Positions 2,567-8,273 of a stretch of 8,273 nucleotides of DNA are shown piece after piece. Within the stretch, counting starts at the first letter, position 1, and every line of letters begins with the position of its first letter. The translations under genes were made by a program, and so were the position numbers. Where the stretch lies: the NCBI GenBank assembly GCA_003249625.1, contig QKII01000073.1:1-8273 (forward strand), given 5' to 3'. The notes under the pieces were generated by a model. That model did not search any database, was not told the DNA's origin, and worked only from the letters and a program-made list of their open reading frames with translations. Source of the stretch: Propionivibrio sp. (GTDB lineage: Bacteria; Pseudomonadota; Gammaproteobacteria; Burkholderiales; Rhodocyclaceae).

Positions 2567-2583
2567 TTTGAGCATCACTCAAA
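2567..2583 (-). terminator. Weak hairpin overlapping the ispF stop codon
   Basis: TTTGAG and CTCAAA form a perfect 6-base stem with a 5-base loop, and the ispF TGA lies in the loop. AT-rich sequence (AATTTAATTAATT) follows on the sense strand. The stem has only two G-C pairs and no true T-run follows, so it is at best a poor intrinsic terminator. Read-through from ispF into ppdK is possible. Confidence 0.22.
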
Positions 2584-3054
2584 CCGTTCGATCAGCGCGA
2601 CGGCATCAGCCGAAATCCCTTCTTCCCGCCCTACAAATCCAAGACGCTCGGCAGTTTTCGCCTTGACATTGACGCAGTCTGGCGCGAGTCCCAGATCCTC
2701 GGCGATTCGCTCCACCATCAGCGGAATATGCGGCGCCATCTTCGGACGTTGCGCGTTGATCGTTGAATCGACATTGACAATCCGCCAGCCGGCCGCCGTC
2801 AATCGGTCACGCACTTCGCGCAGGAGCGCTCTGCTATCGACATCGCGGAAACGCTCGTCGGTATCCGGAAACAGTCGGCCGATGTCCCCCATCGCCGCAG
2901 CGCCGAGCAATGCATCGACGAGCGCGTGCAGCAGCACGTCGGCGTCGGAATGGCCAAGGAGACCGCGTTCGTGTGGAATTTCGACACCGCCGATGATCAG
3001 TTTGCGCCCATGCACCAGCGCGTGGATGTCACTTCCCTGTCCGATTCGAATCAT
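2575..3054 (-). CDS. ispF: 2-C-methyl-D-erythritol 2,4-cyclodiphosphate synthase
   Basis: IspF cyclises CDP-methylerythritol 2-phosphate to methylerythritol cyclodiphosphate with release of CMP, the fifth step of the MEP isoprenoid pathway. The 159-residue product has the usual family length. It shows the metal-binding GSDIHAL near the N-terminus (Asp9, His11) and [11 protein letters not shown] (35-45, with His43 as third metal ligand). FPDTD (62-66) and [15 protein letters not shown] (133-147, with Thr134 and Glu136 at the CDP site) follow. The family is a cytosolic homotrimer with zinc at subunit interfaces. The ATG at 3054 shares ATGA with the ispD stop, implying translational coupling. 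Reading continues open upstream of this ATG, but that part overlaps ispD out of frame and does not resemble IspF, so the start is secure. Confidence 0.97.
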
Positions 3055-3740
3055 GCTTCCCTCGTCGACAAGACCAACTCGGCCAGACGCAGATCGGCCG
3101 GATAGGTCACCTTGAAATTCGTTGCGTCGGCTTTGACCAGCAGCGGCTTGTACCCTGCAGCTTCCAACGCACTCGCCTCGTCGGTTACGCCATGCATTCC
3201 TGCCAGCGTCCGGCAAAGCAGCCCATAGCGGAACATCTGCGGCGTCTGCGCCTGCCACAAGCCGTCGCGCGATTCTGTGGCAGCGACCCGCTGTTCCACG
3301 TCGGCACGCTTCAGCGTATCGGCCACCGGTACCGCCAACAGGCCGCCAACCGGATCGTCACGCAATTCATCGCACAGGGACGCGAGCATCGACCGGGAAA
3401 CACAAGGACGCGCCGCGTCATGCACCAGCATCCAGTCATCGTCGCCAACAATTCCGGCGACGGCGTGCAATCCGTTAGCCACGCTTTCGGCACGTGTTTC
3501 ACCGCCGCAGTAGAGCACTTGCAGCTTCGGTCCGAGGGCAGACCAGTCGTACGTTCCCCACCATTCATCGCCCGGAGAAAGGACAACCCAGACCCGTTCG
3601 ATGCGTTCGAACCGGCACAGCGCGGCAAGCGCGTGATGAATCATCGGCTGACCGGCGAGTTCAAGGTATTGCTTGGGAATTTCAGCACCGAAGCGGGCAC
3701 CGCTGCCGGCTGCGGGTACAAGGGCGAAATGACGTGACAT
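3051..3740 (-). CDS. ispD: 2-C-methyl-D-erythritol 4-phosphate cytidylyltransferase
   Basis: IspD joins CTP and methylerythritol 4-phosphate to give CDP-methylerythritol and pyrophosphate, the third step of the MEP pathway. The 229-residue protein is full length. It has the nucleotide-binding loop [17 protein letters not shown] (9-25) with Arg16 and Lys23, GGETRAESV (79-87), the metal-site HDAARP (107-112, Asp108), ADTLK with Thr142, Arg158, and NFKVTYP with Lys210. These match the catalytic and substrate contacts of the E. coli enzyme. It is followed by ispF with a 4-base overlap; ispE, which acts between them, is not in the window. No convincing Shine-Dalgarno precedes the ATG, yet the conserved N-terminus rules out a later start. 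A TAGAAT hexamer ends six bases before the ATG, so the message could be leaderless. Confidence 0.97.
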
Positions 3741-3789: not shown

Positions 3790-3818
3790 TTGCGACTCCC
3801 CGCCCCCTTTCATATAGT
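3790..3818 (+). promoter_or_regulatory. Sigma-70-type promoter of the amrBAS operon
   Basis: TTGCGA (3790-3795, four of six matches to TTGACA) and TATAGT (3813-3818, five of six matches to TATAAT) are separated by exactly 17 bases. The expected start near 3825 gives a leader of about 14 bases that begins at the Shine-Dalgarno AAAGGAG (3825-3831). The promoter sits in the 98-base gap shared with the divergent ispD. No operator palindrome was seen, so constitutive expression is plausible. Confidence 0.6.
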
Positions 3819-3838
3819 GAAGCGAAAGGAGTCTCTTC

Positions 3839-4660
3839 ATGACCATAAACCTCCGTCCTGCCGCTGTCGCCGGCATGTTCTATCCGGACACCCCCGCAAC
3901 CCTGAGTCGTGAAGTCAAGGCACTGCTCGCTGACGCACCGTTGCAAGGGGAACTTCCGCCGAAAGCGATCATCGCACCGCATGCCGGTTACATTTTTTCG
4001 GGACCAATCGCCGCCAGCGCCTTTGCTGCACTGGCCAGTATGCGCAACACGGTACATCGTGTCGTCCTGCTAGGCCCGACGCACCGGGTCGCCGTCCACG
4101 GACTCGCGTTGCCGCGGTGTGATGCATTTGCCACGCCGCTCGGCACCGTTCCGATCGACAAACCCGCGGTAGACGCCATCAGCGACCTGCCGCAAATCCT
4201 GTTCAGCGACGCTGCGCATGCCCAGGAACACTCGCTCGAAGTTGAAATTCCATTTCTCCAGACCGTGCTTGACGATTTTTCGTTGCTCCCGCTGGCGGTC
4301 GGTGACGCATCGCCTGGCGAGGTCGCTGAGGTGCTGGAGCGCGTGTGGGGTGGGCGCGAAACCCTGATTGTCATCAGTTCGGATCTGTCACACTACCTCC
4401 CCTATTACGACGCCCAGCACATCGATTCGCGAACGGCACAACAGATTCTAGGCCTCGACCCGATGATCAATCACTACCAGGCTTGCGGCGCCACACCGAT
4501 CAACGGCCTGTTGCTCGCGGCGCGCAAGCGCGGCCTGCAGGTGCGTCAGCTTGACCTGCGCAACTCTGGCGATACGGCCGGCGACCGCTCGCGCGTGGTC
4601 GGTTATGGCGCTTTCGGTTTCTTCGCACCGGTAACGGGAGATCGACACCATGTCCATTGA
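3839..4660 (+). CDS. amrB: AmmeMemoRadiSam system protein B (MEMO1 family)
   Basis: This 273-residue protein belongs to the MEMO1 family, whose fold resembles class III extradiol dioxygenases (LigB type). Family features are RPAAVAGMFYP (6-16), PHAGYIFSGP (47-56), LGPTHRV (78-84), AQEHSLEVE (128-136), SSDLSHY (180-186) and ACGATPI (215-221). His48, His82, His185 and Cys216 correspond to the pocket residues of human MEMO1 (His49, His81, His192, Cys244), where metal binding has been reported. A metal site is therefore likely intact, but no reaction is established. There is no signal peptide, so it should be cytosolic. The ATG at 3839 has a strong AAAGGAG seven bases upstream. It is the first gene of a tight operon with amrA (11-base overlap) and amrS, which is why I assign it to this system. 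Confidence 0.94.
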   Translation: MTINLRPAAVAGMFYPDTPATLSREVKALLADAPLQGELPPKAIIAPHAGYIFSGPIAASAFAALASMRNTVHRVVLLGPTHRVAVHGLALPRCDAFATPLGTVPIDKPAVDAISDLPQILFSDAAHAQEHSLEVEIPFLQTVLDDFSLLPLAVGDASPGEVAEVLERVWGGRETLIVISSDLSHYLPYYDAQHIDSRTAQQILGLDPMINHYQACGATPINGLLLAARKRGLQVRQLDLRNSGDTAGDRSRVVGYGAFGFFAPVTGDRHHVH

Positions 4661-5198
4661 GCCACTCGGCCACACCTTGCTGACCATCGCGCGCAATGCC
4701 ATCGAGGAGGAATTCGGCATGAAGCCGCGCACGGTGACGCCGCACCCCGATCTCGCAAAACACGCTGCGACCTTCGTCACGCTTACCCAGAATGGACAAT
4801 TGCGCGGTTGTATCGGCAGTCTGGAAGCGCGCCGCCCGCTGGCCACGGATGTCGCCGAGAACGCGGTTGCCGCCGCCTTCAGCGATCCACGGTTCCCGCC
4901 GCTACGCCGTGGAGAACTCGACCAGACGCGCATCGAGGTTTCCCTTTTGGACACCGCACGGCCCATGGACTTCGACGACGAAGAGGATGCGCTCAAACAA
5001 CTCTGTCCCGGCATCGATGGGGTGATCCTGACCTGTGGCCACCATCGCGCGACCTTCCTGCCGCAGGTATGGGAGTCCTTGCAGACGCCGCGCCTGTTCC
5101 TTGAGCATCTCAAGCTCAAGGCCGGTTTGCCGGCTGATTTCTGGGGCCCAAACGTCGTCCTGAGCCGCTATGGCGTCCAGAAATGGAAGGAGCCATGA
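4650..5198 (+). CDS. amrA: AmmeMemoRadiSam system protein A (AMMECR1 domain)
   Basis: A single AMMECR1 domain fills this 182-residue protein, the normal length for bacterial and archaeal members. The hallmark LRGCIGS (51-57) follows the strand FVTLTQNGQ. Further family signatures are AFSDPRFPPL (76-85), the strand IEVSLLD (95-101), GVILTCGHHRATFLPQVW (124-141) and the C-terminal FWGPNVVLSRYGVQKW (164-179). The biochemical role is unknown. Conserved Cys54 in a tight loop suggests ligand binding or catalysis, but that is inference. The ATG at 4650 lies inside the end of amrB, with GGGAG (4636-4640) nine bases upstream. The stop overlaps the likely amrS start as ATGA. Its constant company with MEMO-like and radical SAM proteins implies one shared process. 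Confidence 0.94.
   Translation: MSIEPLGHTLLTIARNAIEEEFGMKPRTVTPHPDLAKHAATFVTLTQNGQLRGCIGSLEARRPLATDVAENAVAAAFSDPRFPPLRRGELDQTRIEVSLLDTARPMDFDDEEDALKQLCPGIDGVILTCGHHRATFLPQVWESLQTPRLFLEHLKLKAGLPADFWGPNVVLSRYGVQKWKEP
5187..5192 (+). promoter_or_regulatory. Shine-Dalgarno that bears on the amrS start
   Basis: AAGGAG lies between two in-frame ATG codons (5183 and 5195). It can serve only the second, although two bases is a short spacing; the GGA at 5185-5187 gives a better register. The first ATG has no ribosome site. The second also overlaps the amrA TGA as ATGA, so 5195 is preferred. Confidence 0.55.
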
Positions 5199-6295
5199 AA
5201 ACCCCGGAATCCGCCTACCCTGCCCGCTGGTGGCACGCGCTACCGGTCGAAACCGGCAAACCGGCACGCATCCAGTGCGACCTGTGCCCGCGTGACTGCA
5301 AGCTGCACGATGGCCAACGCGGCGCCTGCTTCGTCCGTCAGAATATCGGCGACAAAATGGTGCTCACGACCTACGGTAGGTCGTCGGGATTCTGCATTGA
5401 TCCGATCGAGAAAAAGCCGCTCAACCACTTTCATCCCGGCTCATCGATCCTCTCGTTCGGAACGGCGGGCTGCAATCTCGCTTGCAAGTTCTGCCAGAAC
5501 TGGGACATCTCCAAGTCGCGGGACATGGATCGCCTGATGGATTCAGCCAGTCCCGAGGGCATCGCCGCGGCGGCGCAGGCCTACGGCGCACAGTCGGTGG
5601 CGTTCACCTACAACGATCCGGTCATCTTCGCCGAGTACGCCATCGACACCGCCAAGGCCTGCCACCAGAAAGGCGTCAAGACGGTGGCCGTCACCGCCGG
5701 CTACATCCATCCGGCACCGGCGAAGGATTTCTTCGCTGAGATGGATGCGGCCAACGTCGACCTCAAGGCCTTCACCGACGATTTCTACGTCACGCTGTGC
5801 GGCGGCCACCTGCAACCGGTACTCGACACCCTCGCCTACATCCACCACGAGACGAATTGCTGGCTGGAAATTACCACGCTGCTGATCCCCGGCCAGAACG
5901 ATTCAGCTGCCGAGGTCAAGGCGCTGTCCGAATGGGTCGCGCGCGAACTGGGGCCAGATGTGCCGCTGCATTTCTCAGCCTTCCACCCTGACTGGAAAAT
6001 GGATGAACTGCCACCGACGCCACCGTCGACGCTGACGCGCGCACGAAACATCGCCATGGACGCCGGACTGCATTTCGTCTACACCGGCAACGTTCACGAC
6101 ACGGAGGGCGATACAACCTTTTGCCCCGCCTGCCACGCCGCGCTGATCGTTCGTGACTGGTATGTCATCCGCCACTACGACCTGCCTGACGACGGCTGCT
6201 GCCCGCATTGCCACACCCGCATCCCCGGCCACTTCGGGCGATTCGGGAAACCCTTCGGGTCGCAGCGCATCCCGGTCCGACTGGCGCGGAGGTAA
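5195..6295 (+). CDS. amrS: AmmeMemoRadiSam system radical SAM enzyme
   Basis: This is a radical SAM enzyme of the AmrS type, 366 residues from the preferred ATG at 5195 (370 from 5183). Numbering from 5195, the N-terminus has RIQCDLCPRDC (25-35) and a further Cys45 in RGACFVRQ. The [4Fe-4S] motif CNLACKFC (Cys93, Cys97, Cys100) follows in GTAGCNLACKFCQNWDIS. The TIM-barrel core includes FTYNDPVIFAEY (137-148), NVDLKAF (187-193) and HFSAFHPD (259-266). The C-terminus has VYTGNVHD followed by CPAC (310-313) and CCPHC (335-339), resembling a zinc knuckle. All of this is usual for the family, so the enzyme looks intact. It should cleave SAM to a 5'-deoxyadenosyl radical. The substrate is unknown, and AmrA, AmrB or something they bind are candidates. 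It follows amrA with a 4-base overlap. Confidence 0.94.
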   Translation: MKTPESAYPARWWHALPVETGKPARIQCDLCPRDCKLHDGQRGACFVRQNIGDKMVLTTYGRSSGFCIDPIEKKPLNHFHPGSSILSFGTAGCNLACKFCQNWDISKSRDMDRLMDSASPEGIAAAAQAYGAQSVAFTYNDPVIFAEYAIDTAKACHQKGVKTVAVTAGYIHPAPAKDFFAEMDAANVDLKAFTDDFYVTLCGGHLQPVLDTLAYIHHETNCWLEITTLLIPGQNDSAAEVKALSEWVARELGPDVPLHFSAFHPDWKMDELPPTPPSTLTRARNIAMDAGLHFVYTGNVHDTEGDTTFCPACHAALIVRDWYVIRHYDLPDDGCCPHCHTRIPGHFGRFGKPFGSQRIPVRLARR

Positions 6296-6304
6296 AGAGC
6301 GACC

Positions 6305-6988
6305 ATGCTCGACTTCACTCCTGACGGCCTCGGCATTCCGGTCTCGATCCCATCCGAACACGGTCTGCTGTACGGGGAACTCGGCGTCCTGTCGAACTCG
6401 CCGGGTATCGTCGTCCTCGCGCATGCAACGCTGGCGTTCGACGCAAAAGACAAACTGCTGGCCGGGCAATTCCGCCGCGCGGGCCTTTCGACGCTAAGTG
6501 TCGATCTTCTTTCGCGGCAGGAAGAGCACTTCCCCGATGTCCACAACAACGTGCCACTGCTTGCCCATCGGCTAACCGACTTTCTCGGCCTGCTTCGCAA
6601 CCGCATCGCCATGGGTGAATTGCGCGACCAGCCTGTTGGACTCTTCGCCGCGAATGCCACGTCTCCGGTTGTCATCCGTGTCGCGGCCCTGCGCGACCAC
6701 GACATCACGGCAATCGTCTGCCGCGGCGGCCTGATCGATCTGGCCGGCGTGCTGTACCTGCGAACACTGGAATCGCCGCTGCTGTTGCTGGCCGAAGAGT
6801 CGGATAAAACGCACATCGACAGCAACCGGCGAGCCCTGCGAGAAATAACCTGCCGCAATGAATTCCGCCTCATTCCGGAAATCGGCCCGGACTACGCCGC
6901 ATCGAATGGCATCGTGGAATGCATCAATGCGGCAACAGACTGGTTCACCGATTTCTTCTCTAGCCACCCGTTGAAAATGGACTGCTGA
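6305..6988 (+). CDS. Alpha/beta-hydrolase-like protein lacking catalytic residues
   Basis: The 227-residue protein follows the pattern of dienelactone-hydrolase-like proteins, including those found fused to phosphoribosyltransferases. It has a leading beta region, GIVVLAHA (34-41), AGLSTLSVDLL (59-69), the nucleophile-elbow strand VGLFAANATS (111-120), AIVCRGGLIDLAG (136-148), LLLLAEESD (159-167) and a C-terminal helix TDWF. In active relatives the elbow reads like GYFGAS, with Ser as nucleophile; here Asn117 takes that place. The acid seems kept as Asp167. The catalytic His, usually in a PGATH-like loop, aligns with Pro195/Asp196, and the Gly-rich HGSGSS-type loop is also lost. It is therefore probably a non-hydrolytic binding protein, though the alignment is by eye. 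It begins 9 bases after amrS; GGAGG (6288-6292) lies 12 bases from the ATG. It likely belongs to the amr operon. Confidence 0.75.
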   Translation: MLDFTPDGLGIPVSIPSEHGLLYGELGVLSNSPGIVVLAHATLAFDAKDKLLAGQFRRAGLSTLSVDLLSRQEEHFPDVHNNVPLLAHRLTDFLGLLRNRIAMGELRDQPVGLFAANATSPVVIRVAALRDHDITAIVCRGGLIDLAGVLYLRTLESPLLLLAEESDKTHIDSNRRALREITCRNEFRLIPEIGPDYAASNGIVECINAATDWFTDFFSSHPLKMDC

Positions 6989-7048
6989 CCGTCTCGCAAA
7001 GTTGTAGTAGTCTTGCCCCCCCTTTTGCAGCCCAGCCCAGTCATCGCC

Positions 7049-7819
7049 ATGACGCGTGAATTCCAACGCGCCACATTCCACCGCTCCGCCCTCGTTCGCA
7101 TCCTGTCCGACACGCAGCCGCAGATCCCCGACACGAAGTACGACTTCGGCGAACGGCTCGGACGCTGGCTGAACCTTTCGGATGCAATGACTCTGTTTTC
7201 CGTCCTTGGCGCGGAGGCCGACGCTCGCATGCTCGCGCAGTCATCAGACAATGACCAGCCGGAGCAACTGGCTCGCCTGCGCCAGACGCTGAGCGCGGCC
7301 ATTCACCACGACGGCGTTTTCTGCTCGGTGCCTGAAGGCGCAAAACCGCGCATCCCGTTCCCGACGCCAACGCCCGCCGACGATATTGGCAGCACGCCCG
7401 ACTTCACTCCTTTCCACCGCTACTACCTCGCGCACCAGCGCGAGATGACTACAGCGATCAGCGCGCTGCGCGCCAACGTCCGCAAGGCGCTGGCCGTACA
7501 ATCCGGCTCCGGCCGGCAACTCGCCAACCTTGACGCGACCTTCGAGAAAGCATTGGCAACGCGCGAATACACCCTGCTCGCGAACATCCCGATCCTGCTC
7601 GCACAGACCTTCGAACAGCGCTACGCAGAATACCGCACCTCTGCCAACGACAATCATGATCCGGCCCTCTGGACCCAACCAGGTGGGTGGCTGGAGGCCT
7701 TCTGCAACGACGCAAAGCGCGCCCTGCTCGCCGAACTCGAACTTCGCCTGAAGCCCGTTTCCGGACTAATCGCCGCATTGAACGAAATGAATGAAACAAA
7801 ACCGCATGAACAGTCCTAA
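7049..7819 (+). CDS. DUF3348 family protein of unknown function
   Basis: The predicted product is a mostly helical, soluble 256-residue protein with no signal peptide. I recognise the DUF3348 pattern known from betaproteobacteria: an N-terminal segment RSALVRILSD (12-21), FGERLGRWLNLSDAM (33-47), a Pro-rich linker (about 100-122), FHRYYLAHQREM (122-133) and a long helical C-terminal half ending in an Asn/Glu-rich tail. No catalytic motif is visible. A TTG at 7013 would add 12 residues, but neither start has a good Shine-Dalgarno. ATG is favoured because the extra residues (PPLLQPSP) do not look like family sequence. The gene starts 60 bases after the hydrolase-like gene and overlaps the next one by 14 bases. 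Pairing with the DUF802 membrane protein suggests a cytoplasmic partner of that protein. Confidence 0.75.
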   Translation: MTREFQRATFHRSALVRILSDTQPQIPDTKYDFGERLGRWLNLSDAMTLFSVLGAEADARMLAQSSDNDQPEQLARLRQTLSAAIHHDGVFCSVPEGAKPRIPFPTPTPADDIGSTPDFTPFHRYYLAHQREMTTAISALRANVRKALAVQSGSGRQLANLDATFEKALATREYTLLANIPILLAQTFEQRYAEYRTSANDNHDPALWTQPGGWLEAFCNDAKRALLAELELRLKPVSGLIAALNEMNETKPHEQS

Positions 7820-8273
7820 CCGCAATCTCAGTCTCATTGCCTTTTTTCTCGGTCTGGCCGCCGTCACATGGGTGGCCGTCGGATACGTTGGCAGCAGCAC
7901 TCTGGCCTTCACCGTCTCCTGCCTCATCGCTGCCATATATGTCTCCGGTGCGCTCGAAATGTGGCGTTTCTACGACAGCTCGAGCGCGCTGGCCCACGCG
8001 CTTGACAACGTTTCCGACGAGGTCGACAACATCGGGGCGTGGCTGCAACAGCTCCCGATCACTCTGCAGAACGCCGTTCGCCTGCGCATCGCCGGCGAAC
8101 GCGTCGCCCTGCCGGGGCCGAGCCTCACGCCATACCTAGTCGGCCTGCTCGTCCTGCTTGGCATGCTCGGCACCTTCCTCGGCATGGTCGTCACCTTGAA
8201 TGGCGCTGTGCTGGCCCTGGAAAGTACAACCGACCTGCACACCATCCGTGCAGCACTCGCGTCGCCAATCAAG
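7806..8273 (+). CDS. DUF802 / MotA-ExbB-like membrane protein (N-terminal part)
   Basis: The gene runs open to the right edge, showing 156 residues. Two hydrophobic segments lie at about 8-28 and 32-50, then a hydrophilic stretch (51-106), then a third segment at about 107-131 containing LGMLGTFLGMVVTL. That Gly-rich run resembles the channel helix of MotA/TolQ/ExbB proton-channel proteins, and the overall pattern fits DUF802 proteins of betaproteobacteria. The following ALESTTDLHTIRAALASPIK is typical of the loop after that helix. DUF802 proteins are much longer, so most of it is outside the window. An in-frame ATG at 7791 would add five residues (MKQNR). Neither start has a clear ribosome site, and I chose 7806 for the smaller overlap with the DUF3348 gene. 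Translation may depend on coupling to that gene. Confidence 0.75.
   Translation, partial: MNSPNRNLSLIAFFLGLAAVTWVAVGYVGSSTLAFTVSCLIAAIYVSGALEMWRFYDSSSALAHALDNVSDEVDNIGAWLQQLPITLQNAVRLRIAGERVALPGPSLTPYLVGLLVLLGMLGTFLGMVVTLNGAVLALESTTDLHTIRAALASPIK

Follow-up and report, generated by a model that had tools for sequence, protein, structure and literature searches.

AmmeMemoRadiSam locus of the window

The stretch of DNA analysed here, 8,273 nucleotides of Propionivibrio sp. (contig QKII01000073.1; hereafter, the window), carries three overlapping genes, amrB, amrA and amrS, which encode a MEMO-family protein, an AMMECR1-family protein and a radical S-adenosylmethionine (SAM) enzyme. The window is an ordinary, intact AmmeMemoRadiSam locus, and the novelty of the present results lies in the comparisons with its relatives and not in the operon itself. 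From these comparisons, amrB, amrA and amrS are a real unit, and we tentatively propose, as an idea that is plausible but short of probable, that AmrS performs polypeptide-directed radical chemistry with the AmrB-AmrA pair as its target. The MEMO and AMMECR1 families extend from archaea to humans, where we know of no AmrS partner for MEMO1, and it is natural to look for the reaction of these families in a bacterial operon that also encodes a radical-SAM partner dedicated to them. Within the portions of the literature available to our search, which reached few subscription journals, no established reaction for the trio was found.

All three proteins scored far above the cut-offs of the NCBIfam families that define the AmmeMemoRadiSam system. 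AmrB (273 amino acids; 3839-4660, plus strand, as are the other two genes) matched TIGR04336 with 265.9 bits (cut-off 26) and PF01875 (Memo) with 174.7 bits; AmrA (182 amino acids; 4650-5198) matched TIGR04335 with 201.5 bits (cut-off 99) and PF01871 (AMMECR1) with 160.3 bits; and AmrS (366 amino acids from the ATG at 5195; 5195-6295) matched TIGR04337 with 619.5 bits (cut-off 220) and also PF04055. A previous reading of the window from its sequence alone (the sequence-only reading) had described the order amrB-amrA-amrS with overlaps of 11 and 4 bases, and the coordinates of the open reading frames agreed with this description. The amrB/amrA overlap spans 4650-4660, and amrS has in-frame ATG codons at 5183 and 5195, the latter of which gives the 4-base ATGA overlap with amrA; a start at this -4 position is also possible in many relatives. 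The signature LRGCIG of AMMECR1 proteins lies at residues 51-56 of AmrA, and the LRGCIGS noted previously is intact at 51-57. The gene set is identical to that of the known system, whose co-occurrence and frequent adjacency were also observed here; there was no essential difference, the downstream gene orf4 and the neighbours ispD and ispF being features of the lineage of the window. The closest amrS found, with 90% identity, was that of the metagenome-assembled genome Candidatus Accumulibacter sp. UBA704, where the gene order is identical to that of the window. Compared with the closest relative among the aligned loci (L001), the ratios of nonsynonymous to synonymous substitution rates (dN/dS) were 0.113 for amrB, 0.061 for amrA and 0.052 for amrS, and all three genes look to be under purifying selection.

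Co-occurrence and arrangement of the three genes

We searched 200 Pseudomonadota genomes, 48 of which belong to a single class, that of genome G063 (a protein of which carries the source name Magnetococcales bacterium). AmrS, MEMO and AMMECR1 were found over the cut-off in 79, 83 and 83 genomes, respectively, and all three in 75. AmrA and AmrB were present jointly in 82 of the 84 genomes with either, and AmrS was present in 76 of the 83 genomes with AmrB, in agreement with the conserved three-gene unit proposed earlier. It is most unlikely that the three genes are merely neighbours with separate roles. Such separate roles are favoured by the seven genomes with AmrB and AmrA but without AmrS over the cut-off, by the three of 79 genomes with AmrS but without AmrB, by the solitary AmrS of Pseudomonas sagittaria and, among 14 control genomes, in which archaeal matches to the families were also found, by Haloferax volcanii (AMMECR1 without MEMO) and Thermus composti (MEMO without AMMECR1). 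The E. coli genome among these controls matched neither MEMO nor AMMECR1. Against separate roles, the co-occurrence is far from chance, although kinship inflates this test (48 of the 200 genomes come from one class), and AmrS is present in most genomes where it is encoded away from amrB and amrA.

Among 80 close loci, which were collected by AmrS similarity, 78 had matches to all three families. The exceptions were L004, a stretch that begins inside amrA, and L075 of P. sagittaria, whose AmrS is 71% identical to that of the window and lies inside a 429-kb contig. The arrangement of the genes was more variable. The order B-A-S on one strand was found in 25 of 30 loci, read with short flanks, from the Pseudomonadota genome set. 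In a second set of 49 loci, which partly overlaps the first, amrB-amrA lay on the opposite strand from amrS in 23, B-A-S was found in 9, amrB lay opposite amrS in 3, amrA-amrS was found in 1 and amrS stood alone within the flanks in 13. In the 23 loci of this second set (L229-L277) with amrB-amrA on the opposite strand, amrB adjoins amrS, and this suggests a shared divergent promoter region. In distant loci longer than 7 kb with a fusion of AmrB and AmrA, AmrS was found on the same stretch in 8 of 35, all of them of the second type (AmrS2) described below, and was not found in 27. Thus, the overlapping B-A-S operon is one arrangement among several, and the trio is constant while its order varies. 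The sequence-only reading had taken the overlaps to imply matched amounts of the proteins; this does not hold as a general rule, because 23 of the 49 loci have the genes on opposite strands and 27 of the 35 fusion loci have no AmrS alongside.

In 21 of the 80 close loci, AmrB and AmrA were encoded as one continuous reading frame. When the natural fusion P0051 was used as the query, 120 of the 120 proteins among the matches listed were fusions, although a full-length fusion query favours such matches. The predicted structure of P0051 had a mean predicted local distance difference test score (pLDDT) of 93.8 and a predicted template-modelling score (pTM) of 0.73. These natural fusions indicate that AmrA and AmrB are a physical pair in many relatives. 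In comparison with the archaeal AMMECR1 proteins of solved structure (PH0010, ST0229 and MM0484), AmrA is instead encoded with MEMO and is often fused to it in the relatives.

Metal pocket of AmrB

The His48, His82, His185 and Cys216 residues of AmrB, which had been described as an intact pocket, were all found, and together with Asp182 they aligned with His49, His81, His192, Cys244 and Asp189 of human MEMO1, with which AmrB has the metal pocket in common; His127 and His131 also belong to the pocket. The metal ligands of MEMO1 have been described, with Cys244 at the position where dioxygenases carry Glu (PMC9477392). For a wider comparison, 182 AmrB domains were collected and 160 were retained once repeats were removed; a motif rule assigned 121 of them to an SSDLSH type and 16 to an SGDFTH type, and 23 belonged to neither.

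The six residues H48, H82, H127, H131, H185 and C216 were jointly present in 147 of the 160 AmrB sequences. This conservation favours an explanation in which the three proteins serve to handle or repair a metal site, where AmrB would hold Cu or Fe, as proposed for human MEMO1, and AmrS, which has additional Cys clusters, would service the pocket. The same explanation is favoured by the binding of two Cu(I) per molecule of human MEMO1 in vitro (PMC9477392) and by the existence of MEMO1 structures with iron and copper. However, it leaves both AmrA and radical-SAM chemistry without a role, and it does not account for a glycine that is kept in 121 of 121 AmrB sequences and lies outside the ligand set (see below); we regard it as improbable.

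Two B-A fusions with an SVSY/SISY-type tail (L180 and L181, from genomes G119 and G131) have NHHYRS and HIHHHS in place of the pocket residues HHHHHC, and, judged from these replacements, they are possible pseudoenzymes.

AmrS is related to activases

The CxxxCxxC motif (C93/C97/C100) and the accessory clusters C28/C31/C35/C45 and C310/C313/C336/C339, which had been noted as intact in AmrS, were all present. In 113 AmrS sequences of the window type, C28, C31, C35, C45, C67, C93, C97, C100, C156, C310 and C313 were invariant, and C336 and C339 were present in 110, with gaps in the other 3. C67 and C156 mark the AmrS type of the window, since they are replaced in two other types by His/Ala (n = 11) and Thr/Ala (n = 3). 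The latter three (L122, L123 and L124) are a third AmrS-like type with 294-304 bits and a C-terminal extension of about 150 residues, in which HEV(F/Y)DRAHFPT is shared.

The best foreign NCBIfam match of AmrS was TIGR02493 (pyruvate formate-lyase (PFL) activase; 58.8 bits), and no proteins of solved structure other than PFL activases were related to it in sequence at E 0.001. A structural model of AmrS was made from 44 rows with at least 70% identity to the window, namely the AmrS of the window (P0003) and its counterparts in 43 of the 80 close loci (alignment A2), and the top three structures in a Foldseek search with this model were again PFL activase, with template-modelling scores of 0.70-0.71 by target length. 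Thus, AmrS has the CxxxCxxC motif and the nearest fold expected of a glycyl-radical-enzyme activase, and the radical-SAM core that it shares with PFL activase and other activases is closest to it in both sequence and fold. In simulations from the crystal structure, PFL activase grips its target glycine with Asp16 and Asn38 (PMC9326890). Asn38 aligned with the conserved N102 of AmrS. In contrast to PFL activase, AmrS adds C28/C31/C35/C45, C310/C313/C336/C339, C67 and C156, and the Asp16 anchor is absent; among the window genes scanned with NCBIfam and Pfam, no glycyl-radical enzyme was found. One relative, L076, was left out of alignment A2 because its amrS (L076:8001-9077) contains a stop codon.

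Candidate target and proposed mechanism

The last strand of AmrB contains R252-V-V-G255-Y256. The position of Gly255 was Gly in 121 of 121 SSDLSH-type sequences and was invariant in alignment A1 (93 rows); the 23 sequences of neither type had 18 Gly, 4 Ser and 1 gap there. The first residue of the R-V-x-G-Y-like motif varies among the relatives (R, Q, S, H, K, G or E). The number of chance matches expected in 455 amino acids was about 0.0008 for RV.GY[AG] and 0.024 for a looser form, with the motif chosen post hoc. The V before the Gly presumably falls outside the PROSITE glycyl-radical pattern, and the residue of human MEMO1 that corresponds to Gly255 is, we assume from a register based on the aligned ends, Ser288.

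In the proposed mechanism, AmrB, as the protein with the metal pocket, and AmrA would form a lasting pair, and AmrS would cleave SAM and abstract a hydrogen atom from a polypeptide. The most likely polypeptide would be the AmrB-AmrA pair, in which the invariant glycine of RVVGY would be the best candidate site; once modified or activated, the pair would carry out metabolic work at the His/Cys pocket. We infer three parts of this scheme, namely a polypeptide as the target of AmrS, the identity of this target as AmrB-AmrA, and the residue. Removal of hydrogen from AmrB by AmrS is the most economical proposal, because it combines an activase-branch enzyme, a near-constant partner pair and an invariant target-like glycine. 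A related radical-SAM domain is attributed both to 'recently-described Memo-Ammecr1 systems' and to peptide-processing systems (PMC7159879, citing Burroughs et al. 2019), and Memo domains are found fused to recognition elements of ribosomally synthesized and post-translationally modified peptides (PMC12710340). The comparison yields named residues for tests, namely G255 and C216 of AmrB and N102, C67 and C156 of AmrS.

Several observations weigh against this proposal. AmrS fell below every activase cut-off (58.8 against 231.75 bits for PFL activase), its model was of low quality around the radical-SAM loop (residues 89-117), and the activase anchor Asp16 corresponded to Phe79 when the alignment block was extended by two residues and is not kept. 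Modification of AmrA or AmrB by AmrS is opposed by the existence of genomes with MEMO or AMMECR1 and without AmrS over the cut-off, such as 7 of the 83 genomes with AmrB, some of which are perhaps assembly gaps; in six of these seven that were read, the glycine was kept in four and replaced by serine in two. Conversely, the genome of P. sagittaria had neither a MEMO nor an AMMECR1 match despite its AmrS. In SGDFTH-type AmrB, serine replaced the glycine in 14 of 16 sequences, several of these serine-bearing proteins adjoin an AmrS, and serine is found at this position in exported copies of AmrB. AmrB matched Memo only in Pfam at E up to 10 and has no glycyl-radical domain (Gly_radical, which we take to be PF01228). 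A serine may still be compatible with a radical, to judge from aminoacyl radical enzymes in which the glycine is replaced by Ala, Ser or Thr (PMC11528403). Nevertheless, a true backbone radical on AmrB is very unlikely. We consider equally unlikely the more specific idea that AmrB is a new kind of aminoacyl-radical protein, in which a radical installed by AmrS at Gly255 would pass to Cys216 as in a miniature glycyl-radical enzyme unlike the PFL fold, and of which the exported paralogues would use serine at this position and have an AmrS that also acts on a small Tat-exported peptide.

In an alternative to modification of the AmrB-AmrA pair, this pair and AmrS would act in succession on a shared substrate that is not a protein, for example tRNA, a nucleotide base or an isoprenoid; the radical step would fall to AmrS and a metal-dependent step to the MEMO pocket. 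Burroughs et al. (2019, J Biol Chem) reportedly propose nucleotide-base and isoprenoid modification for Memo-Ammecr1 systems. Against this alternative, AmrB differs from the class III extradiol dioxygenases (LigB family) in having Cys216 where these enzymes have a ligand Glu. Either ispD or ispF was found in 29 of the 62 close loci with at least 3 kb upstream of amrB and in none of the 50 distant loci longer than 7 kb (from 35 genomes), so that the link seems to reflect common descent among close relatives; an isoprenoid link through the gene neighbourhood was rejected as not conserved. Moreover, of the recurrent neighbour clusters in the distant loci, the three that were identified by Pfam make neither bases nor isoprenoids: 22 genomes had a family-5 solute-binding protein, 16 had a transporter permease and 11 had a nucleoside-recognition membrane protein. 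We consider a shared non-protein substrate possible, though rather unlikely. An example of the family-5 solute-binding protein lies at L170:412-3069 (minus strand), and of the 35 genomes that contributed distant loci, 22 have a related gene near B-A.

A second, apparently exported system

Of the 48 genomes from the class to which G063 belongs, 11 carry the second AmrS type, AmrS2 (about 326 amino acids; loci L111-L121, for example, L111:6016-8775). Of these 11 genomes, 8 also have a full and 1 a partial window-type AmrS, and 2 have none over the cut-off. In all 11 loci, a gene for a miniprotein of 47-91 amino acids with a twin-arginine translocation (Tat) signal is located directly 3' of AmrS2, with an overlap of the AmrS2 stop and the miniprotein start of 4 bases (ATGA) in 10 and of 1 base (TGATG) in L121. 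All 11 miniproteins contain the twin-arginine pair and end in Gly, and their consensus tail is L-x-x-AD-x-x-x-PH-x-LAG. In 9 of the 11 loci, the next gene encodes a B-A fusion that bears an apparent Sec signal peptide. Of the two others, L121 has only AmrA, with an apparent signal peptide, and L114 has neither AmrA nor AmrB on the fetched stretch, the fusion being elsewhere on the same contig. Such exported-type fusions are also found in genomes without AmrS2 (for example, G067, G012 and G071).

The association of a radical-SAM gene with a tiny exported protein suggests a polypeptide target, and this paralogous version offers a candidate substrate of 47-91 residues, small enough for direct mass spectrometry. 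The link between AmrS2 and the miniprotein was not replicated outside these 11 genomes of one class: no further AmrS2-like match above 490 bits was found among 398 Pseudomonadota genomes, 198 of which were additional to the first sample, 369 Gammaproteobacteria and the 48 genomes of the class. Homologues of AmrS2 named for Sedimenticola and Escarpia symbionts exist, with 64-66% identity. With a miniprotein profile and at most 30 candidates scored per genome, the 11 source genomes among the 200 gave E values of 1.6e-12 or better, as expected by construction, and the next best was 2.6e-5. Of three miniproteins compared with NCBIfam, two had no match and one matched a Tat signal above the cut-off and formate_TAT below it, both in the signal region; one compared with Pfam had no match. 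In the pair L119/L120, dN and dS were 0.138 and 0.214 for the miniprotein and 0.022 and 0.296 for AmrS2, indicating that the miniprotein evolves faster than AmrS2.

Two other ideas on these genes were rejected. A selenocysteine in AmrS copies was not supported, since the single in-frame TGA is the normal stop of the shorter AmrS2. The miniprotein tail was also considered as the missing N-terminal segment of AmrS2 and was scored against 30 of 114 AmrS N-termini; the sum was 155.6 against a null of 161.7 (standard deviation 6.7), and 164 of 200 shuffles reached the observed value. Separately, in L121 a gene for a 449-amino-acid oxidoreductase, judged by eye to be of flavin adenine dinucleotide (FAD) type, follows the signal-bearing AmrA (L121:3864-5210, minus strand) and may be relevant to the isoprenoid alternative.

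Promoter and neighbouring genes

A probable sigma-70-type promoter, TTGCGA-17-TATAGT, was located at 3790-3818 (plus strand) by a consensus scan. The 'one good promoter' of the sequence-only reading is thus partly upheld: the consensus match means little alone, because one such site was found in the window against 1.8 expected in shuffled sequences, and the four other aligned loci do not keep the element exactly, but we retain it as probable because L001 conserves it exactly. A ribosome-binding site ahead of amrB, AAAGGAG (3825-3831, plus strand), was read directly, and AGGAG is found in 6 of 6 aligned loci. In the whole window, no Rfam family reached the gathering score and no tRNA was detected.

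Nine bases 3' of amrS, orf4 (6305-6988, plus strand), a gene that the sequence-only reading does not mention, encodes a hydrolase-like protein without the nucleophile serine; it had no match in Pfam and NCBIfam scans, and its dN/dS against L001 was 0.130. We call it hydrolase-like from its relatives: those that adjoin amrS, in loci of Thiobacillus, Nitrosomonas and others, carry the nucleophile elbow GASTG. This elbow is replaced by FAANATS in the window, and on this replacement orf4 is probably inactive as a hydrolase. It is possibly included in the amrBAS transcript. Further downstream (7046-8273) are a gene for a DUF3348 protein (PF11828, 217.3 bits) and an open reading frame truncated by the end of the window, for which a Pfam scan gave nothing above the cut-off. 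On the other side of the promoter, ispD (3051-3740; TIGR00453, 224.2 bits) is the divergent neighbour of amrB and is followed by ispF (2575-3054; TIGR00151, 219 bits), both on the minus strand, as is a pyruvate phosphate dikinase gene (PF01326).

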